Of a DNA stretch of 34,654 bases, positions 4,084-30,987 are shown one piece after another. The translations under genes and the position numbers were made by a program. Under the pieces are notes generated by a model. It worked only from the letters and a program-made list of their open reading frames with translations, did no database searches and had not been told where the DNA came from. Where the stretch lies: IMG/VR virus record IMGVR_UViG_3300042387_001118, positions 1-34,654 of that record; one strand, 5' to 3'. How positions within the stretch are numbered: position 1 is the first letter of the stretch; each line of letters begins with the position of its first letter. The DNA comes from a virus.

Positions 4084-4599
4084 TCAGCCGTTAGGGCTAA
4101 ATTTAGTAGATTCATCGCCAAAAACAAAGGTTGTTATTGAGTACCTTTCTCTTTCTAAAACTGGAAATACTTGATGCTTAAGGTGGGCTTTGTGAATAAC
4201 CATGCTTCCTTGCCTTGGGGTAACGCTTAGACCAAGAGTTGGGTATATCAACTCTCCCCCAGTAAAGTCGTCATTTAAATAAATAGCAATACCAAAAACT
4301 ATTTTTCTTGGGTCATCGGGGTTTCCGCCATCTTCATGCGGCCACATAAACTCTGAATTTCTTAACCTTCGTAAATCTCTAGAATAGGTTATTGACTCTA
4401 TATTAATAAAAAGTGTTTCAATAGTTTCATACACATTGTTCATTTTAAGCAATGACTCATCACTTATAGATTTAACTGTATTTCCTACGTGCGTAGTATC
4501 CCAATCAATATCTAGTTGAGCCTCAGATACAAGGGTACTTCTCAGCTCTTCATCTAAAAACCCCTCAATTTCGTACACACCTTCTCCGTGCTTTATCAT
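4084..4599 (-). CDS. Fe(II)/2-oxoglutarate oxygenase, prolyl-4-hydroxylase-like (A)
   Basis: A 171-residue double-stranded beta-helix oxygenase, shortest of the seven. Iron ligands are H88 and D90 (W-P-H-E-D-G) and H142 (K-H-Q-V); R152 (E-R-Y-S-I) sits ten residues after the distal His and would bind the 2-oxoglutarate carboxylate. The family hallmark Y-L-N-D-D-F-x-G-G-E-L is at 107-117. Family members couple decarboxylation of 2-oxoglutarate to hydroxylation, often of peptidyl proline. The substrate here is unknown. It lies two bases after the dehydrogenase gene, with no clear ribosome site, so it probably depends on coupling. Last gene of the cassette. Confidence 0.88.
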   Translation of the reverse strand: MIKHGEGVYEIEGFLDEELRSTLVSEAQLDIDWDTTHVGNTVKSISDESLLKMNNVYETIETLFINIESITYSRDLRRLRNSEFMWPHEDGGNPDDPRKIVFGIAIYLNDDFTGGELIYPTLGLSVTPRQGSMVIHKAHLKHQVFPVLERERYSITTFVFGDESTKFSPNG

Positions 4600-4601
4600 G
4601 A

Positions 4602-5270
4602 TTAGTTATACTTGCTACTGTTGATGTGGCAAATTTCAATTTCATTTATATTAACATGGTTTGGTAACGACCCTACCCAGTAGATAGCTTCTGCTAAATC
4701 CTCTGCAGTTAAGGCGTAGTCTCGTTTTTGCTCTTGGGTATCAATGGTCGCTGGACAAATTTCTGTAATTTTAATGCCAAATTGAGGAAACTCAAGCCTC
4801 ATTGTGTCGATTAGGCCGCGCTCACCCCGCTTGGCGTTTGTGTAATTTCCACCGCCACGATAGGGCACCTTGCCTCCAAAAGAAGTAATAAAGACAATTG
4901 TTGGAGAATCTGACTTTTCCATGCAGGGTACAAATAGTTGGGAAAGGTACATAGGCCCAGATACGTTTATATCGTAGGCGCGTCTAAAGTTATCCATGGT
5001 TTCATTAATAATACTAGTTGGGTCAGAGCCACCACCAGCATTGTTAACTAAAAGGTCTAGGGTTATGTCTTTGTACTGCTCATAGAAGATCTCTATTGCT
5101 TTAGAGTCTGTTACGTCTAAGCTATATACCTCAACGTTATCAGATACAAGCTCAGATACTTTGGAAAGATTTCTTGAAACAGCAATAACCTTATAGCCAT
5201 TTTCAGATAGGCGTTTAACTGTTGCTAACCCCACACCTTTGCTTGCTCCAGTTACAATAGCTGTTTTCAT
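4602..5270 (-). CDS. Short-chain dehydrogenase/reductase
   Basis: 222 residues, a compact classical SDR. The Rossmann nucleotide-binding motif T-G-A-S-K-G-V-G is at 7-14, L-D-V-T-D at 51-55, N-N-A-G at 76-79, N102, and the catalytic S130, Y143 and K147 in Y-x-x-x-K. All key residues are intact, so an active NAD(P)-dependent oxidoreductase is expected. The substrate is unknown. It sits one base after oxygenase B and two bases before oxygenase A, embedded in the cassette. It may act on the same product, for example oxidising a hydroxyl group or supplying a precursor, but that is inference. Confidence 0.9.
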   Translation of the reverse strand: MKTAIVTGASKGVGLATVKRLSENGYKVIAVSRNLSKVSELVSDNVEVYSLDVTDSKAIEIFYEQYKDITLDLLVNNAGGGSDPTSIINETMDNFRRAYDINVSGPMYLSQLFVPCMEKSDSPTIVFITSFGGKVPYRGGGNYTNAKRGERGLIDTMRLEFPQFGIKITEICPATIDTQEQKRDYALTAEDLAEAIYWVGSLPNHVNINEIEICHINSSKYN

Positions 5271-5271
5271 A

Positions 5272-5898
5272 TTAATGAATCCAGTGTTGGGGCACCATTA
5301 TCTTTTCGCCACTCTTCACTAGGTGTGCAGTGTGGTGGTATGGTGGAGATGGTGGGAAAACAATAATGCTTCCAGCTTTTGGTTTGATAGCAAAAGTATA
5401 GCTTTTGTCTTGTGTTGCAATTTCAAAGTCAGGGTTTGGGCTAGCTAGAGTTAGTATTCCTTCTGGGGAAGCAATAGTAAAAGATAGCTCTCCACCCTCA
5501 TAGTCGTCATTTAAGTACATAACAAAAGATACTTTAAGACGGCCATCCCCCTCTTGTTGGTCAAAGTGGGCACCCATATATGTGCCTGCCTTATACTTTT
5601 TAATCGGATACATTGGAAATAGTTTAGGCTCATCTGTGATGCCGTGAGCTGCTGCATAATCTTTTGCTACATCATAAAAAGCTTTTTGTAATGTAGAGTA
5701 GATATAAGTCTTCTGGATATCTGACGGGTCTGCAAAAATACTTTTATCTGTTCCATAGACATACGCTTCCCCACTACACGCCATCCATTCGCCCCAAGGA
5801 TTTTCGTTGTCCTGGTCAATTGCATCAACAAGCTTCTTTGGGTCTTCAATTACGTTTGTGTAGTAGTAAACTTTTTCTTCAAGTATTTCTCTGTCCAT
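5272..5898 (-). CDS. Fe(II)/2-oxoglutarate oxygenase, prolyl-4-hydroxylase-like (B)
   Basis: 208 residues when started at M-D-R-E-I-L-E-E. This ATG has AAAGGA upstream and follows the previous stop by 10 bases; a longer reading would add 22 Lys/Arg-rich residues overlapping the preceding gene. Iron ligands are H111 and D113 (A-H-F-D) and H189 (Y-H-H-T). K199 takes the 2-oxoglutarate-binding position held by Arg in several neighbours, as in animal prolyl 4-hydroxylases. Y-L-N-D-D-Y-E-G-G-E-L is at 128-138. About 20 extra residues (E-G-I-L-T to D-F-E-I) are inserted before the K-P-K-A-G-S turn. Hydroxylase activity is likely; substrate unknown. Confidence 0.88.
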   Translation of the reverse strand: MDREILEEKVYYYTNVIEDPKKLVDAIDQDNENPWGEWMACSGEAYVYGTDKSIFADPSDIQKTYIYSTLQKAFYDVAKDYAAAHGITDEPKLFPMYPIKKYKAGTYMGAHFDQQEGDGRLKVSFVMYLNDDYEGGELSFTIASPEGILTLASPNPDFEIATQDKSYTFAIKPKAGSIIVFPPSPPYHHTAHLVKSGEKIMVPQHWIH

Positions 5899-5908
5899 TT
5901 TGCGTCCT

Positions 5909-6568
5909 TTAGTACTTATTCTTTTGATAGTGGTCTTTTTCTTTAATGAATCCCACAAGAACATATCTTATGGGCCCATCCCCTACATGCTTGACTCCGT
6001 GCTCATACTCTTCGTTACCTGGAAAAAATAACATAGTTCCTGGTTTAGGCTTTAACTGGATATCAAGGTTTGGAAAAAATAATTCGCCGTCTGCATAGTT
6101 ATCATTAATATATACAATTGTAGCGTATTTTATAGATGGGTCTGTTTTTTGATCCGTATGCGCTTTTAACTCTACCCCTGGTTGCATCCGCTGAATTGTT
6201 GCAAAACCACTTAAAATTAATTCCGGGTCGGCTTTGACTACCATTGAGTTTACAACATCATATAGGGGCCTTTGAATCTCATGATGCAAAATATTAAAGT
6301 TTTTATCTTTCCAATTTTGAGTAATTTCAAACTTACCCTCAGCAACTAAGTTTTCTACATCATCTCTGCCAAATTTTTCCATGCAAAACCATTTTAAGTT
6401 TGCGTGGTACTCTACTTCCCAGTCTTCTTGGGGGGTGCTATGTATAATATCCCAAAAAGTATCTATTTGATCTTGTGATAAAAAGTTGTCCACAGAAAAT
6501 AGTTCTGAGGTAATGTCTGTAACTACGTACCCGCTATCTATTAGCTGTTGTTTAAAAGACTCAATCAT
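5909..6568 (-). CDS. Fe(II)/2-oxoglutarate oxygenase, prolyl-4-hydroxylase-like (C)
   Basis: 219 residues. I prefer the ATG of M-I-E-S-F-K-Q-Q-L because AGAGG lies nine bases before it; an ATG three codons upstream would abut that same AGAGG. Ligands are H137 and D139 (K-A-H-T-D), the distal H190 (E-H-G-V) and R201 eleven residues later. The Y-I-N-D-N-Y-A-D-G-E-L motif is slightly altered from the usual N-D-D-Y-E-G-G. The N-terminal ~100 residues are helical and differ from its neighbours, so it is not a recent copy of them. It overlaps the upstream gene by eight bases. Confidence 0.87.
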   Translation of the reverse strand: MIESFKQQLIDSGYVVTDITSELFSVDNFLSQDQIDTFWDIIHSTPQEDWEVEYHANLKWFCMEKFGRDDVENLVAEGKFEITQNWKDKNFNILHHEIQRPLYDVVNSMVVKADPELILSGFATIQRMQPGVELKAHTDQKTDPSIKYATIVYINDNYADGELFFPNLDIQLKPKPGTMLFFPGNEEYEHGVKHVGDGPIRYVLVGFIKEKDHYQKNKY

Positions 6569-7316
6569 TTGCAACATCCTCTATTTTGTATTTATTCCCG
6601 GCTGCGTCTAGCTTCCAGCCTTGCTTAAGGAGCTCTTGCCACTCTGCTCGTTCAATCTCTTGTTGCGCTCTAGTGGCCTTCATCTCTTCAGCCCATGCAT
6701 CTCGCACCTCTTGTGGGTACGCTGACTCTTCTCGGTCATCCCAGAAAGAACCAATGGTGTATCTGACACCACCTGTAATAAGAGATACTTCGTGCATATT
6801 GTTAAACCCGCCGTCAAATACAGCGAGCAGCCCAACTTCTGGTTTAATCTCTAGGTTTTGTGCTGGGAACCGTAAAAGTCCACCTTCAAAATCATCGTTT
6901 AAGTATAGAAACCCTGCGTAGCGGCTTCTTGTAAACGCACCTGAGTTTCCTTCAGCATCTGTGTTGTCAGAGTGAATTCTTGCGTATGCTCCTGGCTCCC
7001 ACTTCTGTGTGTGGTAACCAATTTTACAGATTGTTTTTGGGTCAAGGTCGTGGACTGAAGCAATTGCTTCAGGCATTGCCTTTTCAATATCTGAAAATAT
7101 AGTTGGGGATAAACCAGCGTCAATAACTTCTTGGTCGTTGTCTTGTGGCAAAACTGAAGAATATGACTCATAAAATGAAATAGGCATCCAAGAAATTGCC
7201 CCATTGTCTGCCTGAGCATCTAAGGCCTGGATCATCTTTTTGCAGTCTTCTTTGCCTATAAAATTTTTATAAACAACTATATCTTTTGTTATTCTTGTTT
7301 TGTTTTCCAAGTTCAT
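6561..7316 (-). CDS. Fe(II)/2-oxoglutarate oxygenase with charged C-terminal extension (D)
   Basis: 251 residues. Ligands are H115 and D117 (R-I-H-S-D), H175 (M-H-E-V) and R185 (V-R-Y-T). Y-L-N-D-D-F-E-G-G is at 138-146. Unlike the others, the core is followed by a ~55-residue tail rich in Glu, Arg, Gln and Trp (from about 195), probably helical, ending near G-W-K-L-D-A-A-G-N-K-Y. That tail could mediate binding to a partner. GGAG lies about ten bases before the ATG. Activity expected; substrate unknown. Confidence 0.88.
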   Translation of the reverse strand: MNLENKTRITKDIVVYKNFIGKEDCKKMIQALDAQADNGAISWMPISFYESYSSVLPQDNDQEVIDAGLSPTIFSDIEKAMPEAIASVHDLDPKTICKIGYHTQKWEPGAYARIHSDNTDAEGNSGAFTRSRYAGFLYLNDDFEGGLLRFPAQNLEIKPEVGLLAVFDGGFNNMHEVSLITGGVRYTIGSFWDDREESAYPQEVRDAWAEEMKATRAQQEIERAEWQELLKQGWKLDAAGNKYKIEDVAND

Positions 7317-7332
7317 TGTGCTTTTACTCCGT

Positions 7333-8106
7333 CTAGTTATTTATAAGGGATTTGTCTCCAGCAAGAAGTTTTTCTATCTCCTGTTGAACAAGGGCATACT
7401 CTTCATCAAACACTTCTGGGGTTCTTCCTTCTCCCATAGCGGCAGGGGTCCCTTTAGCTATTAAATCTTCTTTTAGTGTCTTTTCAATATCATAATTTAA
7501 CACTGTGCACTGAAACCAGTTGGCTACATACCCATCTTTATCAATAAGGTACTTTTCAAAGTTTCCGCCCTGCATTGCGCCGTTACCAAAAGGCTGATTT
7601 AACCAAGGTGACAAATAACCATCTCTGTCTGGAATGCCGAGTTCTCTTTGTTTTTCAGCAAACACAAGCATTTGCTCGGCTATTTCTTTGTATAGCTCAT
7701 GAGTTTCTTTTCGTGGTTGACCTAGGCCGTTTACAGAGCTATCGCCCTTGTGAGGGCTAAGCTCAGTAGCACTCTCATTTGGGTTTGACGACACCATCTC
7801 TGAGAACTTAAACGTGGTTCCGTAGACTTCTTGACCATACTCTTGTGAATCTAAGCCACAGGTAATGCCTTCAGACCACTTGCCCTTAGTTACTCCTGGG
7901 CCACAATAGTCATTAGTAGGGATAGCAATAACTTGAAAATCATCTCCGCCGTACTTATCTTGAAGCCATTGAAGAACTTCCATTTGATTAGCGTTACCAC
8001 AGCCTACGGTTGTATTAGCCAGTAGGGTGACTTTACCCTTAAATTGACTTAAGAAGTCAGGGGATCCCTCAGCAGAGTTAAGCGGGATGTCGTAAATTGA
8101 TTTCAT
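7333..8106 (-). CDS. Glutathione-peroxidase/thioredoxin-fold protein, atypical active site
   Basis: 257 residues. The N-terminal ~65 residues match the glutathione peroxidase fold: I-Y-D-I-P-L, F-K-G-K-V-T-L-L-A-N, then C36 in V-G-C-G where the peroxidatic Cys/Sec stands, and I-P-T-N-D near 62-66. Residues 182-198 (N-F-E-K-Y-L-I-D-K-D-G) match the family's late N-F-x-K-F-L-I block. The canonical Gln appears replaced (D66) and the Trp before Asn182 is Gly, so the catalytic tetrad is incomplete. A ~90-residue insertion separates the halves and a helical tail follows 205. It may be a peroxidase protecting iron enzymes or a thiol-redox partner. No Shine-Dalgarno is evident; see the promoter at 8107-8118. 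Confidence 0.72.
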   Translation of the reverse strand: MKSIYDIPLNSAEGSPDFLSQFKGKVTLLANTTVGCGNANQMEVLQWLQDKYGGDDFQVIAIPTNDYCGPGVTKGKWSEGITCGLDSQEYGQEVYGTTFKFSEMVSSNPNESATELSPHKGDSSVNGLGQPRKETHELYKEIAEQMLVFAEKQRELGIPDRDGYLSPWLNQPFGNGAMQGGNFEKYLIDKDGYVANWFQCTVLNYDIEKTLKEDLIAKGTPAAMGEGRTPEVFDEEYALVQQEIEKLLAGDKSLINN

Positions 8107-8118
8107 ATGTTTTATTGT
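8107..8118 (-). promoter_or_regulatory. Possible -10 element for leaderless transcript of the peroxidase-like gene
   Basis: In the short gap before the gene, the minus strand reads TACAAT, seven bases from the ATG. Transcription started at the usual distance from this -10 would begin at about the start codon. No ribosome-binding sequence precedes the ATG, which agrees with a leaderless message. No good -35 hexamer is visible, and AT-rich gaps give such matches by chance. Confidence 0.28.
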
Positions 8119-8127
8119 ACACCGTCA

Positions 8128-8814
8128 TTACGGCTTTCTATCCCCTGTATGCGCCGTAATTTCCCAAAAGAAGGGGCACGTAAATCTTAGGCCACTCTTG
8201 ATCTCAGTAACCCCGTGAATGTAGTTTTTGTCGCCGGGGAAGAAGTAGGCGGCGCCCTTTTTAGGCTTAAACTGCACGCCCTGTAGCGGGAAGTACAGCT
8301 CCCCGCCCTCATAGTCGTCGTTTAGATAAAACAAACTTGATAGGTCGTAGTTTGGGAAGTCGTTAGGTGTTCCGGCGTCAGGGCCCTCGTGAAGCTCTTT
8401 ATCAGCGTGTGGTTTTTGAAACTGCCCAGGAAGCCATTTAACAATAGTTGTACCAGTTGGTATAACCTCTACCTTGTAGAACTCTTCAATAATTGGTCGT
8501 AGTCTTTGAAATAGCCCAGCAATTACTGGAGATATTTTTGGGTCATTTTTATCTAAAGTTGGCTGAGTTGCAACCCTATCTTTCCAATAATCTGAGTCGT
8601 AGGTAACGGTCCCATTCTCATTTGTATGGCTTTGCGTTACATCCCAAATTGTTAAAGACTTAGCGGCTTTCTCTAAAAACTCTATCTCTTCTTGGGTCAT
8701 AAAGTTCTCTAGCTCAACAATCATGTCTTTGCTGTCCCCAAACCATCCTGAGGGAGTCATAGATGGCGTTCTTTTTGCTACAGTGTACGAGTCTTTATCT
8801 TGTTCCATATTCAT
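8128..8814 (-). CDS. Fe(II)/2-oxoglutarate oxygenase, prolyl-4-hydroxylase-like (E)
   Basis: 228 residues. Ligands are H136 and D138 (K-P-H-A-D), H200 (I-H-G-V) and R210 (L-R-F-T). Y-L-N-D-D-Y-E-G-G-E-L-Y-F-P is at 163-176. A loop of about 18 residues (E-L-H-E-G-P-D-A-G-T-P-N) follows the HxD motif and probably covers the active site. The start ATG overlaps the stop of the preceding DUF6065-like gene as ATGA. The intact ligand set predicts activity; substrate unknown. Confidence 0.89.
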   Translation of the reverse strand: MNMEQDKDSYTVAKRTPSMTPSGWFGDSKDMIVELENFMTQEEIEFLEKAAKSLTIWDVTQSHTNENGTVTYDSDYWKDRVATQPTLDKNDPKISPVIAGLFQRLRPIIEEFYKVEVIPTGTTIVKWLPGQFQKPHADKELHEGPDAGTPNDFPNYDLSSLFYLNDDYEGGELYFPLQGVQFKPKKGAAYFFPGDKNYIHGVTEIKSGLRFTCPFFWEITAHTGDRKP

Positions 8815-9527
8815 AGTATATCTCTTTTCGTTTTATCTATTACTCCTAATTTTAATGTTTTTACTTCGTGAGAGCCTTGAGATTCTTTTTTCTCATTTAC
8901 AGCATCTCTATACCAGTCTGTCCATTTTCCAGACGAGTTTATTTCTTGTGCGGCAGATCCATAGGACATGTTTGCATTTAGTCTTTTTCTATCTGGATCT
9001 TGGTACTCAACAATCTCAATATTTGTCCCATTTAAATTTGACAAAGATATGGGAATAATTGTGGCAACCGGAGTTCCCGCTTTAATAATTACCCGCTTAT
9101 TGGCAACCTTTGCCTTAATAGCTAAGGGCAAAGGGTTGTCATAAAAAGAGGTACTAATTAAAGACGACATTGTCTCAAATTCGTCACTAAAGTAATTTAC
9201 TGGGTTAATGGTAAAAATACTAACATCCTGATCTGTTCTAAAAACTAACCCGGTATTTAGGCTTATAGAGGACTGACCCCTTCCAGAGTAGGCCCCTTCT
9301 GGACTAAATACTTGTACACGATCTGGGGTTTGGTCATTTACCCCATCCCAAATAAACTCAATATCTTGTAGACAAGACAGGCTCCAGCCAATCACATTTG
9401 ATTGGGTTACTGGAAAACACCTATAGGCATGGTTCTCTGATGTTGCATCCATCCAATCTCTTTTAATCGACATAGGTTGAATGTCAAACAAAGCTCCTTG
9501 TGTCTTCTCAACTGAGATATTAAACAT
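8811..9527 (-). CDS. DUF6065-like protein
   Basis: 238 residues. The segment R-D-W-M-D-A-T-x6-A-Y-R-C-F-P (about 23-39), followed by G-W-S-L, then G-L-V-F-R-T and I-K-A-G-T-P-V-A-T-I-I-P, matches my memory of DUF6065, a bacterial and phage family often found beside 2-oxoglutarate oxygenases. The identification is from memory. The pattern suggests a beta-sandwich. No HxD iron motif, signal peptide or membrane segment is seen. It is coupled to oxygenases on both sides (TAATG and ATGA), implying a partner role such as substrate presentation. Confidence 0.62.
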   Translation of the reverse strand: MFNISVEKTQGALFDIQPMSIKRDWMDATSENHAYRCFPVTQSNVIGWSLSCLQDIEFIWDGVNDQTPDRVQVFSPEGAYSGRGQSSISLNTGLVFRTDQDVSIFTINPVNYFSDEFETMSSLISTSFYDNPLPLAIKAKVANKRVIIKAGTPVATIIPISLSNLNGTNIEIVEYQDPDRKRLNANMSYGSAAQEINSSGKWTDWYRDAVNEKKESQGSHEVKTLKLGVIDKTKRDIL

Positions 9528-10183
9528 TAATCTGCGTCTGCGCTATACATTTCTGGAGTATGAAACTTTTTGCTGTAATCTAACATTGTAACAATAGAGT
9601 ATTTAGTTCCAGAAGTTACCGGTAGCGCTTGATGTGGGTACATAAAATTTGATGGAAAAATAAACAGGTCCCCAGCATCAGGCTTAACCTTTAAGTTTTG
9701 TAGTCTAAAGAAAAGCTCTCCACCCTCATAATCATCGTTTGGATACCCAACTAAAGAGACCGTACAGTTATAGGAAAAGCCATGGTCGTGATGTTCCATA
9801 AAGTGCTGTCCTGGACCATACTTAATGAAGTTAAATGCTTCCCAGTACTTTAGGTTGTTAATGTTATACATCCTTGAGTAGTCTTCAACTGCTGGCAGCT
9901 TTACGTCATAAAGATCTTGCCAAAGTGATTGAAGGTTTTGACTAACCTGGCTTTTATCATTTTCAAGATCAGTTTTCTTAAATTTAAAGTCGTTGCAATC
10001 TCTGTACTCTGGCATAAGCTGCTTATACCCAACATATGCAGGTTGCCAAGCGTACCCAGTAGTATCCCCTTCTGGCTTAAGGTTTGCTTCAATTCGGCCC
10101 ATAACATCAATGTCTTTATTGATTACGCCCTTATAGCAAAAAATGCCGCTGCCTAAATCAACTTTTTCTGTCCATGTCTGCAT
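9527..10183 (-). CDS. Fe(II)/2-oxoglutarate oxygenase, close paralogue of the one at 10960-11667 (F)
   Basis: 218 residues. HxD is H131-H132-D133, with the distal H184 (P-H-Q-A-L-P) and K194 in place of Arg. It shares long blocks with the oxygenase at 10960: Y-W/Y-E-A-F-N-F, K-Y-x-G-x-G-x-H-F, the D-H-G-x-x-Y-N-C-T-V-S block, F-P-S-N-F/Y and S-G-T-K-Y. A recent duplication is therefore likely. In the usual N-D-D-Y-E-G-G motif the residue before N-D-D is Pro (Y-P-N-D-D), which is unusual. AGGAG six bases before the ATG supports the start. Lys as 2-oxoglutarate ligand is typical of peptidyl prolyl 4-hydroxylases. Confidence 0.89.
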   Translation of the reverse strand: MQTWTEKVDLGSGIFCYKGVINKDIDVMGRIEANLKPEGDTTGYAWQPAYVGYKQLMPEYRDCNDFKFKKTDLENDKSQVSQNLQSLWQDLYDVKLPAVEDYSRMYNINNLKYWEAFNFIKYGPGQHFMEHHDHGFSYNCTVSLVGYPNDDYEGGELFFRLQNLKVKPDAGDLFIFPSNFMYPHQALPVTSGTKYSIVTMLDYSKKFHTPEMYSADAD

Positions 10184-10192
10184 TACATTCTC

Positions 10193-10960
10193 CTATTTGT
10201 ATTCTCGTCTTGACCAAACACTATTTTGGTATACCCCGCCATCAGGCTGGCGATAAAACTGCATGTTATTAACTAGTTTATCATACATAGTAGATTGATC
10301 TGGGATCTCTATTTTATGTTCCCAGTTTTCTCTTTTAAACGGAAGAACCTGCATATACGGGGTTCCTTCCGGTAAGGTGCCTTCCCAGCCTTCTGGAAGA
10401 AAAAATGGAAAAGTTCCAAGTAAGTGAAGTTTATCTGAGTCCACAACGCCAGTAGTATTTAAAAATGGTAAGTCAAACCTATTCATTGGTGTCATAAACA
10501 GTGCACTATACCCTTCTGGAAGCTCTAATCCCCAAGGAGAACTCCAGGCAAAGTGGGTTTGATAATATCCTTTTGGGTGTTCAAACTGTGGCATTGGGGG
10601 CCTTTGTGTACAAAAATCTTGGTACTTAGGGTTATCAATTTTTACATCTATGACTCCCTGATCATTTTTATAAAAAACTAGGTCGCATGGTGTTTTAAAA
10701 ATGTACCCGGTTGTAAAGGCATCCATAATAGCGGGGCACGCTTTCCATGTCGGAATCTTTCCATAATCATCAGTTGTGCCCTCTTTAGGAAACGGACAAA
10801 CTTCTTTTGGCGCTTTGTAGTATTCCCCGTTTGGCATCTTTGCAAATCTGTCTGCATCTTTATACCAGGCAGGAATTTGTGTTTGTGTTGGTACGGGAAC
10901 AGAGATATGCTTTTTATCTATCCACGGCCTAAATGATCTAAATATGGCTACTAAAGACAT
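10193..10960 (-). CDS. Uncharacterised protein of the oxygenase cassette
   Basis: 255 residues, aromatic- and proline-rich and predicted to be soluble and beta-rich. Recognisable blocks are P-A-W-Y-K-D-A-D-R (about 30-38), A-C-P-A-I-M-D-A, G-Y-I-F-K-T-P-C-D, P-E-G-Y-S-A-L-F-M-T-P and E-G-T-P-Y-M-Q-V-L-P-F-K-R-E-N-W. I associate such proteins with phage prolyl-hydroxylase loci but have no function for them. The order (aromatic strand, G-Y-x-F, a G-V-V-D-S-D turn, G-T-P-x-x-Q-V-x-P) loosely parallels the DUF6065-like protein downstream, so the two may share a fold. It starts within the previous stop (TAATG) and lies between the two closest oxygenase paralogues. Confidence 0.6.
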   Translation of the reverse strand: MSLVAIFRSFRPWIDKKHISVPVPTQTQIPAWYKDADRFAKMPNGEYYKAPKEVCPFPKEGTTDDYGKIPTWKACPAIMDAFTTGYIFKTPCDLVFYKNDQGVIDVKIDNPKYQDFCTQRPPMPQFEHPKGYYQTHFAWSSPWGLELPEGYSALFMTPMNRFDLPFLNTTGVVDSDKLHLLGTFPFFLPEGWEGTLPEGTPYMQVLPFKRENWEHKIEIPDQSTMYDKLVNNMQFYRQPDGGVYQNSVWSRREYK

Positions 10961-11667
10961 TACTTGTGCCCCAATTCATTGATATCTGTCATAACAACCA
11001 CGCAATATTTTGTCCCTGAAACCATTGGCAGGGATGCATGCTCATAGATATAGTTTGATGGGAACACCGCGATGTCCCCTACTTTTGGTTTATAAACTAG
11101 ATTATCAAGTCTTGGGAACTTAAGGTCTCCACCCTCATAATCATCGTTAATATAAATAACCGCAGATACTGTGCAGTTGTATGCAGGGCCGTGGTCTGCG
11201 TGAATGTTGAAGTGAGTCCCTGCCCCCTCATACTTTACAAAGTTAAAAGCTTCGTAATATACGACGTTAATGCCCCAATACCTAGCATAGTCGTCTATAC
11301 AGTACTTAAGCTTTTGGTATATCTCCTCATGCAAGTCTATAAGTTCAGCGTTTGACTCATCTTTTGGCCCAAGGTTTTCCTGCTTATACTTAAAATCTAC
11401 ACAGTCTCTTGCCCGCTTAACTGGGACATCAGACTGCGTAACTTGCGCCTCTGACCACTTGTATTTGTTGCCTGGTGATAGGTTGGATTCAAGAGTGTTA
11501 ATGTATCTTGCAGCATCTTCACTGGAAAAAGTGTTTTGGTAAACGTGTAGTCCCAAACCTAAATTTTTAACACTTACTTTATCGTCTAGAGCTCTTTCAG
11601 GAACTCTATTTGATGCAGTCTCTGACCTATCTTTTGTAAACCAGATGTTTTCATTTTCATTGTGCAT
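10960..11667 (-). CDS. Fe(II)/2-oxoglutarate oxygenase, prolyl-4-hydroxylase-like (G)
   Basis: 235 residues. Ligands are H156 and D158 (I-H-A-D-H-G), H210 (E-H-A-S-L-P) and K220 (G-T-K-Y). Y-I-N-D-D-Y-E-G-G is at 172-180. A variable ~40-residue N-terminus distinguishes it from its paralogue at 9527. First oxygenase of the cassette, with a strong AGGAGG ribosome site, so it is probably well translated. The Lys ligand and the E-A-F-N-F-V-K-Y block place it nearest to peptidyl prolyl hydroxylases. Actual substrate unknown. Confidence 0.9.
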   Translation of the reverse strand: MHNENENIWFTKDRSETASNRVPERALDDKVSVKNLGLGLHVYQNTFSSEDAARYINTLESNLSPGNKYKWSEAQVTQSDVPVKRARDCVDFKYKQENLGPKDESNAELIDLHEEIYQKLKYCIDDYARYWGINVVYYEAFNFVKYEGAGTHFNIHADHGPAYNCTVSAVIYINDDYEGGDLKFPRLDNLVYKPKVGDIAVFPSNYIYEHASLPMVSGTKYCVVVMTDINELGHK

Positions 11668-11685: not shown

Positions 11686-11931
11686 CTAATTAAGTGGCTG
11701 TCTTTTCCATTTTCCAATAGGACACTCTGCATCCGCAAGCGTTGTTTTTAACGGCATAATGCATCCGCATAGCTTACAGCTTTTTGTAACCTTAATAAGG
11801 TTTTCACAAGACATGCATTCATCAAGTCTTTTTTTAATAATTTCCTGGTCATCAATTCTTTTGCCAGAATCAATTAAGTGCCAAGGCCTTGAGTCTCCAA
11901 GAGCCTCTTTCCATTCACTCCATTTAGACAT
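11686..11931 (-). CDS. Six-cysteine zinc-ribbon-like small protein (copy 2)
   Basis: 81 residues. Cysteines at 39, 42, 52, 55, 57 and 70 align one-for-one with those of the protein at 818-1060. Shared blocks are R-L-D-x-C-x-x-C, C-K-x-C-G-C-I-M-x-L-K-T and C-P-x-x-K-W. The N-termini differ (W-x-E-W-K-E-A-L here). It lies between the two-repeat beta protein and the first oxygenase, three bases after the former's stop. Probably binds one or two zinc ions; a nucleic-acid or protein-binding adaptor role is possible but unproven. Confidence 0.77.
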   Translation of the reverse strand: MSKWSEWKEALGDSRPWHLIDSGKRIDDQEIIKKRLDECMSCENLIKVTKSCKLCGCIMPLKTTLADAECPIGKWKRQPLN

Positions 11932-11934
11932 AGG

Positions 11935-12366
11935 TTACTCTGGAGACGTAAAGGTTGTGCCGTCCCAGATAGAGCCACGATTAACTGTTTGGCCTTCTGG
12001 TACCTTAATGACAATAACTTCTTGAGCAAAAGCAGCGGCGTTCATTAAATCTGTGTGACCACCTTTTGGAGATACCGTAGTTAAGAACACGGTGTTGTCC
12101 ACTAGGAAAGAGTATCTTCCCCAATCAGGGGTATCGTTGAACCTTTCAGGTATTTCTCCTCCCGTAAAAGATTCACCGTCCCAAACTGATCCAGGATAGA
12201 CATTTGGGATATCTGTTGTAACCAGTGTTGTTATTGGCAGGCCGCTATTTAGCGCATTATCAATTCGCTGAATTAAAATGTCTGCTTGAGGGCTCTCAAG
12301 GTGTAGCATATTAAAAACTTCGTAAGAGTTTTCAGATACTTTTGTTGCATACGCATACGTACTCAT
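11935..12366 (-). CDS. Two-repeat beta-rich protein at the head of the oxygenase cassette
   Basis: 143 residues made of two related halves. Each ends with a G-S-x-W-D-G-x-x-F-T motif (about 59-68 and 131-140), preceded by a helix and a strand; the second half carries F-L-V-D-N-T-V. The gene at 609-818 is a one-repeat relative. Similar short W-D-G-x-x-F modules occur in phage fibre-associated proteins, so a structural or chaperone-like role is plausible. AAAGGAG lies upstream of the ATG, and a possible promoter lies at 12395-12426. First gene of the cassette; function unknown. Confidence 0.7.
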   Translation of the reverse strand: MSTYAYATKVSENSYEVFNMLHLESPQADILIQRIDNALNSGLPITTLVTTDIPNVYPGSVWDGESFTGGEIPERFNDTPDWGRYSFLVDNTVFLTTVSPKGGHTDLMNAAAFAQEVIVIKVPEGQTVNRGSIWDGTTFTSPE

Positions 12367-12394: not shown

Positions 12395-12426
12395 AATATA
12401 CCATATCTTAGTAAGCGCACTGACAA
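12395..12426 (-). promoter_or_regulatory. Candidate promoter of the oxygenase cassette
   Basis: On the minus strand an extended -10 (TGGTATATT, 12395-12403) is preceded by TTGTCA at 12421-12426. Spacing to TATATT is 20 bases, longer than ideal, but the TGG extension can compensate. Transcription would begin near 12388, leaving about 22 untranslated bases with AAAGGAG before the first cassette gene. The -35 hexamer lies inside the 3' end of the Phe/Pro gene. Inferred from sequence only. Confidence 0.38.
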
Positions 12427-13346
12427 CCGCACCCTGCGCCAAAGTCATACGCACAGAAGTAGCAAGCTGATCCACAGCCACCAAAGGATGGGAAGCTAGG
12501 TGGGAAGAAAGGAGGGAAGAACGGAGGGAAGAACGGGAAGAACGGTGGAAAGAATGGTGGAAAGAACGGGAAGAATGGGAAGAATGGCGGGAAGAATGGT
12601 GGGAAGAAGGGAAAGAATGGCGGGAAAAATGGTGGGAAGAAAGGAAAGAATGGAAAGAATGGTGGGAAGAAAGGAGGAAAGAATGGGAAAAATGGTGGAA
12701 AGAATGGTGGGAAGAAAGGAAAAAACGGTGGGAAGAATGGCGGGAAGAATGGGGATAACGTAGTAATAGAGCCAGACGCAGCAGAAGCAACACTTGTTCC
12801 ATTAGCGTTAGTTGCGGTGACTGTGTATGTCTGTGACGTTCCACCAGTATCAGCGATAGTAATTGGGGAAGTCGCACCTGTTCCAGTAGTGGCATCGGAG
12901 CCTGTTACGGTAAAGCCAGTAATTGCGCTACCACCAGTTGCTGGTGCTGTAAAAGCAATAGAGTTTTGATTAACTCCAGCAGTTGGGGTTGGGGCAGACA
13001 TAGTTGCAGGAACTGTTGTTGCGGTAATAGAAGATGATGCTGCAGATGCCTGAGAGGTTCCCGCAGCGTTAGTAGCTGTTACAGTAAATGTGTAGGCTGT
13101 GTCAGACTGAAGTCCAGCTACCGTAATTGGGGAAGATGATCCAGTTCCAGTATATCCGCCAGGCGATGAGGTTACAGTAAACGATGTAGCAGCAGGGGAC
13201 AGCGCAGGCAAAGAAAATGTAACTGTAGCTGCGCCATTGTTAAACGCTCTTCCTGTTCCAACATTTGTAGCAGATACGCTTGTTGGAGCTAATGGCTCTA
13301 AAAAGTCATTTGAAGCCTGTGACTTTTTTCCAACTCTTTTACCCAT
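12408..13346 (-). CDS. Fibronectin-like fibre protein with a Phe/Pro tract and Cys-rich tip
   Basis: 312 residues. Residues 19-112 and 113-196 look like two fibronectin type III/Ig-like domains (Y-T-F-T-V-T-A-T-N-A-A-G-T-S and T-Y-T-V-T-A-T-N-A-N-G-T-S). Residues 199-283 consist only of Phe and Pro in F-F-P-P and F-F-P units, followed by P-S-F-P-S-F and a tail of about 24 residues with seven cysteines (G-C-G-S-A-C ... G-C-G-C-Q-C). The N-terminus is basic (G-K-R-V-G-K-K), with no signal peptide. AGGAG precedes the ATG. Probably a virion appendage. The adjacent hydroxylase cassette makes the proline tract a candidate substrate (inference). The tract is AG-rich on the plus strand but stays in frame. 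Confidence 0.78.
   Translation of the reverse strand: MGKRVGKKSQASNDFLEPLAPTSVSATNVGTGRAFNNGAATVTFSLPALSPAATSFTVTSSPGGYTGTGSSSPITVAGLQSDTAYTFTVTATNAAGTSQASAASSSITATTVPATMSAPTPTAGVNQNSIAFTAPATGGSAITGFTVTGSDATTGTGATSPITIADTGGTSQTYTVTATNANGTSVASAASGSITTLSPFFPPFFPPFFPFFPPFFPPFFPFFPPFFPPFFPFFPFFPPFFPPFFPFFPPFFPPFFPFFPFFPPFFPPFFPFFPPFFPPFFPPSFPSFGGCGSACYFCAYDFGAGCGCQCAY
12498..12752 (-). repeat. Tandem coding repeat giving the Phe/Pro tract
   Basis: About 255 bases of near-tandem short units, on the plus strand variants of GGGAAGAAYGG and GGAAAGAATGG. They translate on the minus strand as F-F-P-P/F-F-P. Units differ at silent positions (AAC/AAT, GGC/GGT/GGA), so the reading has been kept free of stops and frameshifts despite a repeat prone to slippage. 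That argues for selection on the protein. Confidence 0.85.
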
Positions 13347-27214: not shown

Positions 27215-27796
27215 CTATACGTTACTATTTAGATTATCTATTAAGAGTCCTGCTCTAGGACCATCGCACCAAACTTCATGTGAATTTTCAAGGGGTAGGT
27301 AAAGCATATCCCCGGGGTTTAACGTATGGGTAATGTCCCCATCTATTTTCCAAAAAGATGTTCCTAGTATTTGCCAATAGAATATGTCATGTGGGTCGTG
27401 GTGATCTGAAACAAGCCTATTAGAAAGAGATACTCGTATACCTTGAAAATGCCAATCAAGGTCGCAAGTATGTGACATGGTTTTATAGTAGCCGCACGAA
27501 GTGTCCTCTTGCCCGTTGTTTAAACCGGATAGAAGTTCTGATACCCCTTTAAACTCTTTGAATATGTCAGACGTTTGAGGGGCAAGCCAAAACTTGCTTT
27601 GTATTTGTACATTACCGATTGATATAAAGTCATCATTACCGTGTTCTTTTACTCTTTTTGCTAACTCATGGTTCGTAGTAGTTGACTCTTTGTATAAAAA
27701 GTTTAAAACTTCTTCCCAAGTAATGTTTGGGGTTTGGTAGTTTTCAAATACAATGCCGTGGCTATTTTGCTTAGCTTCTTTAATTTTATCTAACAT
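27215..27796 (-). CDS. JmjC/cupin-like Fe(II)/2-oxoglutarate oxygenase
   Basis: 193 residues. The pattern H132-x-D134 (H-H-D-P-H-D-I-F-Y-W-Q), then G-x-x-x-W-K-I, L-N-P-G-D-M-L-Y-L-P and the distal H173 (N-S-H-E-V) matches JmjC-type/cupin-4 hydroxylases, whose known members hydroxylate ribosomal or other proteins. This is a different branch from the seven prolyl-hydroxylase-like genes, so the window holds at least two oxygenase types. Iron ligands look complete. It converges on the lysozyme gene and follows the endolysin gene by seven bases, with no clear ribosome site, suggesting coupling. Substrate unknown. Confidence 0.75.
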   Translation of the reverse strand: MLDKIKEAKQNSHGIVFENYQTPNITWEEVLNFLYKESTTTNHELAKRVKEHGNDDFISIGNVQIQSKFWLAPQTSDIFKEFKGVSELLSGLNNGQEDTSCGYYKTMSHTCDLDWHFQGIRVSLSNRLVSDHHDPHDIFYWQILGTSFWKIDGDITHTLNPGDMLYLPLENSHEVWCDGPRAGLLIDNLNSNV

Positions 27797-28955: not shown

Positions 28956-29122
28956 TCGTCATCCTTTGGGTTACGTAATGGGTAAGTCACCGCCCACGCA
29001 AATAGTGTTCCTACAATCGCATAGCCTACAATGGTTTTAGCTGACCCGTCTAGAACAACCCAGGCAATAAACATGCCTAGTAGTGTCCATAGCTGGTCGA
29101 TCATATCTCTTAGTATTCTCAC
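28952..29122 (-). CDS. 56-residue two-transmembrane protein, candidate holin
   Basis: A short gene starting GTG at 29122 and ending TGA at 28952. Its start overlaps the stop of the proline-rich gene as GTGA and its stop overlaps the lipoprotein start as ATGA. GGAG lies just upstream. The protein begins [10 protein letters not shown] and has hydrophobic segments at ~11-24 ([10 protein letters not shown]) and 31-46 ([12 protein letters not shown]), ending with charged N-P-K-D-D-E. Size and topology fit a small class II holin. Its overlaps on both sides make the gene secure. Confidence 0.78.
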
Positions 29123-30987
29123 GGTTTTCTCCTATATCCTGATGGGCCAGAAGCGCCTCCGCCTCCAGTACTTCCTCCTGTTGAGCCACTTGCAGCACCT
29201 GCAGCAGCACCAACAGCATTTATTGCAGCACCTGCCGCAATAACTGTTGCAACAACAGCTTTTGTTGATTCTTCGCGCTCTTCAGTAGACATATCAGCAC
29301 CAATACTTGCAAATGCTTGTAGTGCCTCACCTGGGTCGCTAAATATTGCGCCAATTAATTCGGATGGATTCTCTAGTAAAACTAGAGCCGCAGCTACGTC
29401 TGCTGTAATTATAACTTCATTACCTTCTTCATCCTGCCTAACCTCAACAGGGGTCTCTTCAGGAAGGTCCTTATACTCAATACCAGCATCTTGAATTTGC
29501 TCTTTTGTAAGAGTTTCTCCAGGGGCTACTGATTCAATAAGCGCTTCCGCAACTAATTCTTTTTCAGCGGTAGTTAGCTTTCCATCTTCAGATAAAGCTT
29601 CAGATAGGGCAGACACTTCTGCAGCAGTAACTTCTCCGTCTGCGGTTAAAGCATCCATAACGGCTTCAGAATCAGCGGCAGAAAGAGTGCCGTCAGATAA
29701 AACATCTTCTACAGCACTGGCGACTTCTTCAGCTTCTGTGGTAGGATCTGGTTCAGGTTCTACTATAGGAGGTTCAGGTGCAGGCTCAGGTGCAGGCTCA
29801 GGCTGTGGCTCAGGTTCAGGCTCAGGCTCAACGGGTGGCTCAGGCTTTGGCTCAGGCTCAGGACTTGGTTCAGGTTCGAGCTCAGGAACAGGTTCAGGCT
29901 CTGGGGCTGGCTCTGGCTCAGGTTGAGGCCCTGGCTCAGGCTCTGGGAGAGGCTCTGGGAGAGGCTCAGGCCCTGGCTCAGGCTCAACGGGTGGCTCAGG
30001 AATGGGATCTACAGGGACAGGCTCGACCGGCGGCTCAGAAGGCTGTTCGGGAGTTATTGGAGGAATACCAGGCTCGGGTTCTGGAATCGCCGGAGTCGGC
30101 TCAGGAGTTGGCTCAGGTTGAGGAACAGGTTGAGGTTCTGGAACCGTGGGAGAGACCACAGGTGGTTCGGGAATTGGAATTGGGGTAGGTTCTGGTGTTG
30201 GTTCTGGTGTTGGGGTTGGTGTCGGTGTTGGTTCCACTGCTGGTGGGATTGTTGGTATGGGCGTTGGTTCAACGGGAACAGGAGTAGGCGATGGAGTTGG
30301 TTCTGGTGTTTGTGGGGTTGTTGATGGGGTCGGTTCTGGGCTACTGGTCGGTGTTGCTTCGGGTGTGGCGCTTGGAGAAGGAGTTGGCTCAGGCGTTACT
30401 ACAGGTGTCGGAGTTGGAGTCGGTTCCGGAGTTGAAACCGGAGTGGGTGTGGGTTCAGAAGTCGGAGTGGGAGTCGGTGAAGGTAAGGCAGTCGGACTTG
30501 GAGATGGCGTTGGACTCGGCTCGGGCGAAACTGATGATTCGGGAGTAGGTGTTGGGCTAGGGGTTGGATCTACTGTTGCTGTTGGTGTATCTGATGGCGA
30601 AGGGCTTGGAGTCGGAGTTGTTGCAGTAGATGTATCAGAAGGTGTTGGTGAAGGTGTTGGAGTAGGCGTTGGTTCAATCGGTGTTGGAACTACTCCGTTG
30701 TAATAGCGAAGAGGCCCATCAGGAACAGTTGTTGAAACAAAAATTGGAAACCCGTTAGAAAACCCGCCTGTGCAGAAAAGCGCAGCAATATCACCTTTAC
30801 CATTAAAAAAGGCTTGTGAATTATCCCAACCAACATTAAAAACTTTTTGAGTGCCGTCATCTTTGGCGCAGGTAATTGTTGTTCCTGCAGGGGTCATCTC
30901 TGCATAAGCAGGGTTTGGGAATAATAAGGGAAAGAAGGCTCCGGATGTTAAAACGAATAGTGCTGCGAATAGGCGCAAGCGCTTCAT
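29119..30987 (-). CDS. Secreted protein with long proline-rich tract
   Basis: 622 residues. Residues 1-29 are a signal peptide ([10 protein letters not shown] ... A-Y-A). Residues 30-100 form a small domain with two cysteines. Residues ~101-415 are a tract with Pro at nearly every second position: T-P/S-P repeats first, then E-P repeats. Residues 416-480 contain three helical repeats of the type D-G-x-x-(S/T)-A-A-D, loosely EF-hand-like. Residues ~576-601 are hydrophobic ([10 protein letters not shown]), then a Gly/Ser-rich tail with R-R-K-P. It resembles a wall- or membrane-spanning stalk. No ribosome site precedes the ATG. Function unknown; prolines could be hydroxylated or glycosylated (inference). 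Confidence 0.75.

Follow-up and report, generated by a model that had tools for sequence, protein, structure and literature searches.

Positions 4084-11667 of the IMG/VR virus record IMGVR_UViG_3300042387_001118 hold a run of eleven minus-strand genes, seven of which encode oxygenases resembling prolyl 4-hydroxylases (P4Hs), and a short distance upstream lies a gene, termed FFP here, whose product contains a long tract of phenylalanine and proline only. The whole stretch analysed, 34,654 bases, is referred to as the window. An earlier note on this DNA had drawn attention to the eleven genes as a cassette of diverged oxygenases dependent on Fe(II) and 2-oxoglutarate (2OG), and had read them as a dedicated modification pathway; its coordinates take in the enzymes and leave out FFP, the best candidate substrate, which sits just outside the cassette. 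Tract and oxygenases are linked across phages with different capsids, and this linkage is one ground for the interpretation offered below.

The oxygenase cassette and the FFPP-repeat gene

Read in the direction of transcription, the cassette runs from 11667 down to 4084 in the order A, DUFa, B, DUFb, C, GPX, D, E, F, SDR, G, the single letters denoting oxygenases, with intergenic gaps of -56 to +21 bp. To judge from this spacing, the cassette genes and the upstream FFP gene on the same strand are probably co-transcribed. Two small genes, W143 and ZN, lie between FFP and the cassette; in relatives, FFP homologues are found 0.06-1.7 kb upstream of the first oxygenase.

12408-13346, minus strand: FFP, proposed substrate and putative adhesin or tail protein, with an fn3 domain (PF00041, E=1.8e-8), an (FFPP/FFP)n tract and a Cys-rich cap
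12498-12752, minus strand: the tract of FFP, 85 residues comprising 46 Phe and 39 Pro only (FFPPFFPPFFP...)
11935-12366, minus strand: W143, 143 aa; no Pfam match; syntenic in some relatives
11686-11931, minus strand: ZN, Cys-rich DUF6171-like mini-protein (PF19668, E=5.6e-5, below the cut-off); syntenic in some relatives
10960-11667, minus strand: A, P4H-like oxygenase (PF13640, 42 bits; HAD156, H210, K220)
10193-10960, minus strand: DUFa, DUF6065-related (PHROG_7084, E=2e-33; no Pfam match at E<=0.001)
9527-10183, minus strand: B, P4H-like oxygenase (PF13640, 51 bits; AlphaFold model discussed below)
8811-9527, minus strand: DUFb, DUF6065 (PF19541, E=5e-26), with a predicted dUTPase-like beta fold
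8128-8814, minus strand: C, P4H-like oxygenase (PF13640, 37 bits; HAD136, H200, R210)
7333-8106, minus strand: GPX, glutathione-peroxidase-like (PF00255, 33.6 bits against a cut-off of 27)
6561-7316, minus strand: D, P4H-like oxygenase (PF13640, 32 bits; HSD115, H175, R185)
5909-6577, minus strand: E, P4H-like oxygenase (PF13640, 44 bits; HTD140, H193, R204)
5272-5964, minus strand: F, P4H-like oxygenase (PF13640, 47 bits; HFD133, H210, K221)
4602-5270, minus strand: SDR, short-chain dehydrogenase/reductase (PF00106, E=6e-40)
4084-4599, minus strand: G, a short, variable oxygenase, the least constrained of the set (PHROG_61, E=7e-14; HED88, H139, R150)
1069-2814: T3, Cys-rich protein, a virion-protein candidate of the same module

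The open reading frames (ORFs) stand where the earlier note placed them, and its description of seven among eleven consecutive genes as 2OG-Fe(II) oxygenases with a full signature holds, in that the HxD...H metal triad and the Arg or Lys for 2OG are in register in all seven. Of the 973 oxygenase ORFs of 140-420 aa compared from collected loci, duplicates counted, 946 likewise keep the motif intact. A loose regular expression of it also matches 5-18% of shuffled copies (three proteins tried), and it is therefore the profile scores that carry the evidence for oxygenase identity. The profile search that the note had proposed for each gene bears out A-F, all of which exceed the curated PF13640 cut-off; G falls below it and is recognized by PHROG_61 and a custom hidden Markov model (HMM) only. 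The accompanying SDR and peroxidase-like genes are as the note described them, while its single DUF6065-like protein proves to be two genes, DUFa and DUFb. Pairwise identity among the oxygenases is 19-28%, with the exception of A and B (42%). When 200 oxygenases were placed in a FastTree phylogeny, best-hit labels clustered (31 changes versus 128.7 when shuffled); the labels derive from similarity, and the tree serves as a consistency check only.

Among A-G, the double-stranded beta-helix fold of P4Hs is recovered for B alone, in its predicted model (pLDDT, the predicted local distance difference test, 94.4). The first match of this model in VIA-align is the algal P4H with (Ser-Pro)5, 3gze_A (Z 20.1, root-mean-square deviation (rmsd) 2.1 over 173), in an effective tie, to within about 1 Z unit, with prolyl hydroxylases of the hypoxia-inducible factor (HIF) type and with the P. 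putida P4H:EF-Tu complex; the latter complex ranks first in Foldseek. A profile of B searched against PDB sequences scores best with bacterial P4Hs, including that of B. anthracis (E about 8e-14).

The FFP tract consists of F and P only and is devoid of any Gly-X-Y repeat. Relatives of FFP retain it while the cap varies, and across 148 distinct tracts FF or YF fill 2457 of the 2500 two-residue gaps between prolines. The codons used are mixed for both Pro (CCA 2766, CCG 1161, CCT 649, CCC 90) and Phe (TTC 4238, TTT 678). The tract thus seems to be conserved as protein sequence; a DNA repeat is unlikely, since F and P are preserved despite variation at third codon positions. In different loci it is attached to fn3, to He_PIG (Ig-like) or to PASTA-like domains, the PASTA matches lying below the cut-off. 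By eye, the FFPP proteins of seven loci (L030, L031, L175, L198, L222, L235, L243) end in a C-terminus resembling Hint/intein-type autoprocessing domains, a domain that Pfam did not call in the two proteins from L030 and L175.

A viral contig of 100.8 kb is 99.9% identical to the window over at least the first 19.5 kb of the latter. The minus strand of the window also carries terminase, portal and capsid genes, the capsid protein sharing 71-73% identity with its counterparts in six Streptomyces phage records (LuckySocke and BRock, for example), and past the window the matching contig runs on into tail sheath, tube and baseplate genes. Given this continuation and the gene order of the window, the cassette sits in the structural region, with fibre-like genes on one side and contractile-tail genes on the other.

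Linkage of the tract with oxygenase cassettes

From the enzyme side, 301 loci were collected in four scans (GPX, capsid, DUFb and a distant DUFb), each capped at 80-120 loci; the loci are related and were not dereplicated. A tract was scored at the DNA level as at least three FFPPFF codon sites. It is present in 95 of 96 loci with at least three oxygenases and more than 2 kb visible upstream, and in 5 of 124 with fewer than three oxygenases. The remaining 81, with at least three oxygenases and no more than 2 kb visible upstream, were set aside (30 with a tract, 51 without). As the distant DUFb query was taken from a tract locus, the count was repeated excluding that scan and came to 56 of 57. 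The sole exception among the 96, L076, is not a DUF6065 cassette. As for the five tract loci with few oxygenases, L108 and L139 break off inside FFP or no more than 0.8 kb away from it, and L140, L429 and L446 carry two oxygenases each. An ORF-based tract count gave 37 of 48; ten of its eleven misses do carry FFPPFF tracts at the DNA level, and in the eleventh, L437, the cassette begins at the contig end. A count of 103 of 111 that includes tract-selected loci is not used as evidence.

The same association emerges from the tract side. A pattern scan yielded at least 120 tract loci, and among the 120 listed, 91 hold an oxygenase and 57 hold three or more. Where at least 2.5 kb could be seen 3' of the tract, an oxygenase follows within 2.5 kb in 70 of 82 loci among the matches listed, at a median distance of 634 bp; comparable 2.5-kb windows in capsid loci contain one in 1 of 315 cases. 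A scan for collagen-like (GPP)3, with 120 loci listed and a similar total length, found an oxygenase in six, three or more in none and one within 2.5 kb downstream in 2 of 69, and a collagen-like substrate is accordingly rejected. A Thr/Gly/Ala repeat pattern gave no matches and is uninformative as a control. Within a prokaryote collection of 84,980 genomes, the tract pattern occurs in eight stretches, which by eye comprise four chance frames and four phage-like FFP genes; three of these four have P4H-like genes nearby, and the fourth is close to the end of its locus.

Contigs of at least 18 kb allow tract and capsid to be compared. Among 80 listed tract loci, 47 are this long; 44 of them have PF13640 matches and 33 have six or more. 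Among 80 capsid loci, the 21 such contigs with the same capsid have PF13640 matches in three cases, one with six or more and tract-bearing; the tract occurs in two of the 21, one of which is cut off inside it. Of 50 contigs that bear the tract, 31 being longer than 50 kb, three were found to encode a relative of the window capsid, one of these matches being partial; tract-bearing contigs may be fragments, and a missing capsid is no proof for any single contig. Descent of whole phages from a common ancestor can hardly account for the pairing, because of this capsid count and because the tract is found on different scaffolds.

The cassette also seems to be inherited as a unit. In the best 80 of 147 loci from the GPX scan, the cassette or part of it is present in 40, in one order and with G optional; DUFa is shifted behind DUFb in five of the 40. 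When the window is compared with seven relatives, omega, the ratio of nonsynonymous to synonymous substitution rates, ranges from 0.004 to 0.152 in every gene but G, wherever it could be computed (several synonymous rates, dS, are saturated and give no omega). For G it is 0.32-0.48 in four relatives, no G being labelled in the other three of the seven. These values indicate that selection on the cassette is purifying. Cassettes of 3-13 oxygenases recur, which answers the earlier note's call for a count per locus in related phages, also in contigs where the window capsid protein was not found; the distant DUF6065 genes come with other architectures, of up to 13 oxygenase ORFs per locus (13 within 16 kb in L434 and L437). 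Scattered, independent gain, the outcome that the note had set against its own reading, was looked for and not seen in relatives, given the synteny and purifying selection; cyanophages do show scattering (excerpts of PMC9146016). Synteny in 40 of 80 loci, low omega and recurrence thus leave the first half of the note's dedicated modification pathway well supported: the cassette is a dedicated, co-inherited module, not a set of isolated auxiliary genes. The second half, chemical modification, we infer.

A proposed maturation pathway and its alternatives

Proline-rich repeats matured by P4Hs are known from the hydroxyproline-rich glycoproteins of plants (extensins) and from animal collagen (cf. 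excerpts of PMC7960765). With the P4Hs of C. reinhardtii (P4H-1), B. anthracis and the virus PBCV-1 (vCPH), the cassette enzymes have in common the 2OG-Fe(II) fold and the HxD...H...K/R signature, and these proteins are among the closest solved relatives of B. The window differs from all three in carrying seven such genes in a row, with up to 13 ORFs per locus elsewhere, and its FFPP repeat differs from the SP of the algal P4H ligand. Other P4H repeats, PAPK and GXY, are likewise unlike FFPP. In comparison with extensin and collagen, the window tract is aromatic and free of Gly-X-Y, and neither Pfam nor PHROG recognized a glycosyltransferase in the window cassette. For PBCV-1, the title of a cited work reportedly announces evidence of hydroxyproline in viral proteins.

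We consider it probable, with considerable room for doubt, that the cassette is a module serving the post-translational maturation of an FFPP phage adhesin. The FFP product would be a tail-region protein in which an fn3 domain is joined to the long Phe-Phe-Pro-Pro/Phe-Phe-Pro tract. The seven P4H-like enzymes would bind the extended tract much as P4Hs bind proline-rich peptides and would hydroxylate it with the use of Fe(II), O2 and 2OG, the paralogues sharing out the positions: the first or second Pro of PP, the lone Pro of FFP and possibly Phe or flanking residues. A very hydrophobic chain could in this way gain solubility, stiffness or an affinity for the host surface. The DUF6065 proteins are possible scaffolds or chaperones, GPX possibly handles thiols or peroxide, the SDR may oxidize the new hydroxyl, and neighbouring tail proteins are perhaps hydroxylated too; anything past hydroxylation (SDR oxidation, glycosylation, a role in binding) is guesswork. 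Hydroxylation of the FFPP tract is held most likely because three lines converge on it, namely the linkage, the P4H fold and the substrate-like character of an extended Pro-rich chain. A broader proposal, which we regard as evenly poised, is that many environmental phages build a new class of fibre, hydroxylated, aromatic and proline-rich, from FFPP repeats, and that mobile cassettes of up to 13 dedicated hydroxylases with DUF6065 partners move between unrelated phages and adhesin scaffolds, their paralogues writing different positions of the repeat. Such a system would be the phage parallel to the maturation of collagen or extensin.

Several observations weigh against tract maturation. Seven or more enzymes seem many for one simple repeat. 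The cyanophages P-SSM2, ACG-2014f and S-SCSM2R have 9, 8 and 11 PF13640 matches (E<=0.001, not all over the cut-off), and no FFPP tract was found in these three; such enzymes therefore have other targets too. Twelve of the 82 tract loci considered above (among the matches listed) have no oxygenase within 2.5 kb downstream, four of them (L181, L192, L210, L231) having oxygenases at other positions of the locus, and 3 of the 47 long tract contigs are without a PF13640 match, the custom HMM finding no oxygenase there either. The counts overstate independence, as loci were not dereplicated, the scans had an upper limit on loci and some contigs appear in two of them. A second candidate substrate in the window could be the Pro-rich protein encoded at 29119-30987. 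Finally, an oxygenase lies within about 1.5 kb of none of 19 DUF6065 loci (two of them under the cut-off) from one phylum, represented by 299 sampled genomes. This led us to reject DUF6065 as a general bacterial partner of oxygenases, and it is the reason why the DUF6065-oxygenase pairing may be phage-specific.

The alternative that fares best, though we think it unlikely, is that the oxygenases modify other virion proteins of the module (fibres resembling MTD or head-decoration (HD) proteins, T3 or the Pro-rich 29119-30987 product), FFP being co-inherited cargo of the same adhesin island. Several structural proteins do neighbour the cassette, placed as it is between fibre-like and sheath, tube and baseplate genes, and many of the loci long enough to show the region have an MTD or HD homologue upstream. 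However, HD or MTD homologues occur in 27 loci of the capsid scan, 24 of which have no tract; no oxygenase lies within any of these 24, although many end soon after the fibre gene. Seven capsid-scan contigs of at least 18 kb encode an MTD homologue and have no tract; six of these are without a PF13640 match and one has a single match. Fibre genes alone, then, do not bring oxygenases, whereas the tract tracks the enzymes and occurs on different scaffolds.

Host take-over is a less probable explanation still. EF-Tu and ribosomal proteins are targets of bacterial P4H and ROX enzymes, and the phage oxygenases might hydroxylate such proteins of the host; in Foldseek, B matches the P. putida P4H:EF-Tu complex first, and the PHROG category of phrog_61, 'moron, auxiliary metabolic gene and host takeover', includes such a function. 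Against this stand the position of the genes inside a structural region and their association with a repeat protein in phages whose capsids differ. A metabolic or nucleic-acid role appears most improbable of all: control of 2OG levels and DNA repair have been proposed for cyanophage 2OG oxygenases (excerpts of PMC9602691 and PMC9146016), a small-molecule tailoring route would suit the SDR and GPX-like genes, and C and G show a weak Tet_JBP similarity, below the cut-off, but the fold and sequence of B match peptidyl-proline hydroxylases, no repair or biosynthetic core gene was recognized in the cassette by Pfam (PHROG does list weaker 'DNA endonuclease' families for the oxygenases), and the FFPP linkage would be left unaccounted for.

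Aquatic phages often carry 2OG oxygenases as 'auxiliary' genes. The earlier note's estimate of one or two such genes per phage is too low, as the three cyanophages above illustrate. T4-like cyanophages resemble the window in having many diverged PF13640 paralogues per phage, which in the records tested are spread over 215-252 kb in contrast to the one compact cassette found here. Excerpts of the literature report 24 2OG genes in S-SCSM1 (PMC9602691) and nine 2OG oxygenase genes in S-SZBM1 (PMC9146016), state that the functions of cyanophage 2OG genes 'have not been specifically investigated' (PMC9602691) and call the viral use of P4H cryptic (PMC9301287). Within the open-access PMC text searched, to which subscription journals and preprints are mostly external, neither FFPP tracts nor oxygenase cassettes like these are described in the portions returned, 'ffppff' occurs in no phage paper as judged by title and the start of the abstract, and nothing was found joining hydroxyproline, phage tail and prolyl hydroxylase. 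Among GenBank phages, DUFb (tblastn), the distant DUFb and FFP have no match at E<=1e-5, and neither has the tract as a query, although BLAST masks simple repeats.

The pairing of tract and cassette supplies a specific, testable substrate for a subset of phage 2OG oxygenases, moving their reading from host metabolism to virion maturation, and it offers both a new repeat polymer and a naturally occurring series of hydroxylase paralogues for a single repeat. DUF6065 gains a context.

Partner proteins and neighbouring genes

Residues 1-179 of the predicted DUFb model (pLDDT 94.7) align with dUTPases (1q5h_A, Z 11.7, rmsd 5.4 over 124) and with 8hrv_B (Z 11.6, rmsd 2.7 over 116). DUFb does not match the dUTPase family profile, PF19541 being its sole Pfam match at E<=0.001, and a protein with such a predicted dUTPase-like fold could possibly be a scaffold or a new enzyme. 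A sequence search for a solved relative of DUF6065 yielded nothing convincing, and no paper on DUF6065 was found in the open-access PMC literature. GPX passes PF00255 and scores far below the NCBIfam equivalog cut-offs; among GenBank phages it finds two records, with weak matches.

Among GenBank phages, relatives of DUFa turn up in 49 records, each of them a halovirus to judge by its name or host; that of Halorubrum virus HRTV-11 (L453) lies at 5863-6750, near DNA polymerase and thymidylate synthase genes. Upstream of two distant cassettes are Anp1-like candidates, one at L413 1642-2445, a weak glycosyltransferase candidate below the cut-off, the other at L422 2320-3126, which has no profile match.

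Elsewhere in the window, on the minus strand, 29119-30987 encodes a protein of 622 aa that has a hydrophobic N-terminus and long stretches rich in PTP/PEP, and no Pfam or PHROG match. The minus-strand gene at 27215-27796 specifies a JmjC_2/cupin-like protein whose whole-protein score of 28 bits exceeds the Pfam cut-off of 22, no single stretch passing by itself; it is a possible eighth 2OG oxygenase, outside the cassette, and has homologues in several GPX-scan loci without a visible cassette (L050, L068 and L075, for example). Two similar Cys-rich, DUF6171-like mini-proteins flank the module on the minus strand, one encoded at 818-1060 and the other being ZN (11686-11931), the one that scores below the Pfam cut-off.

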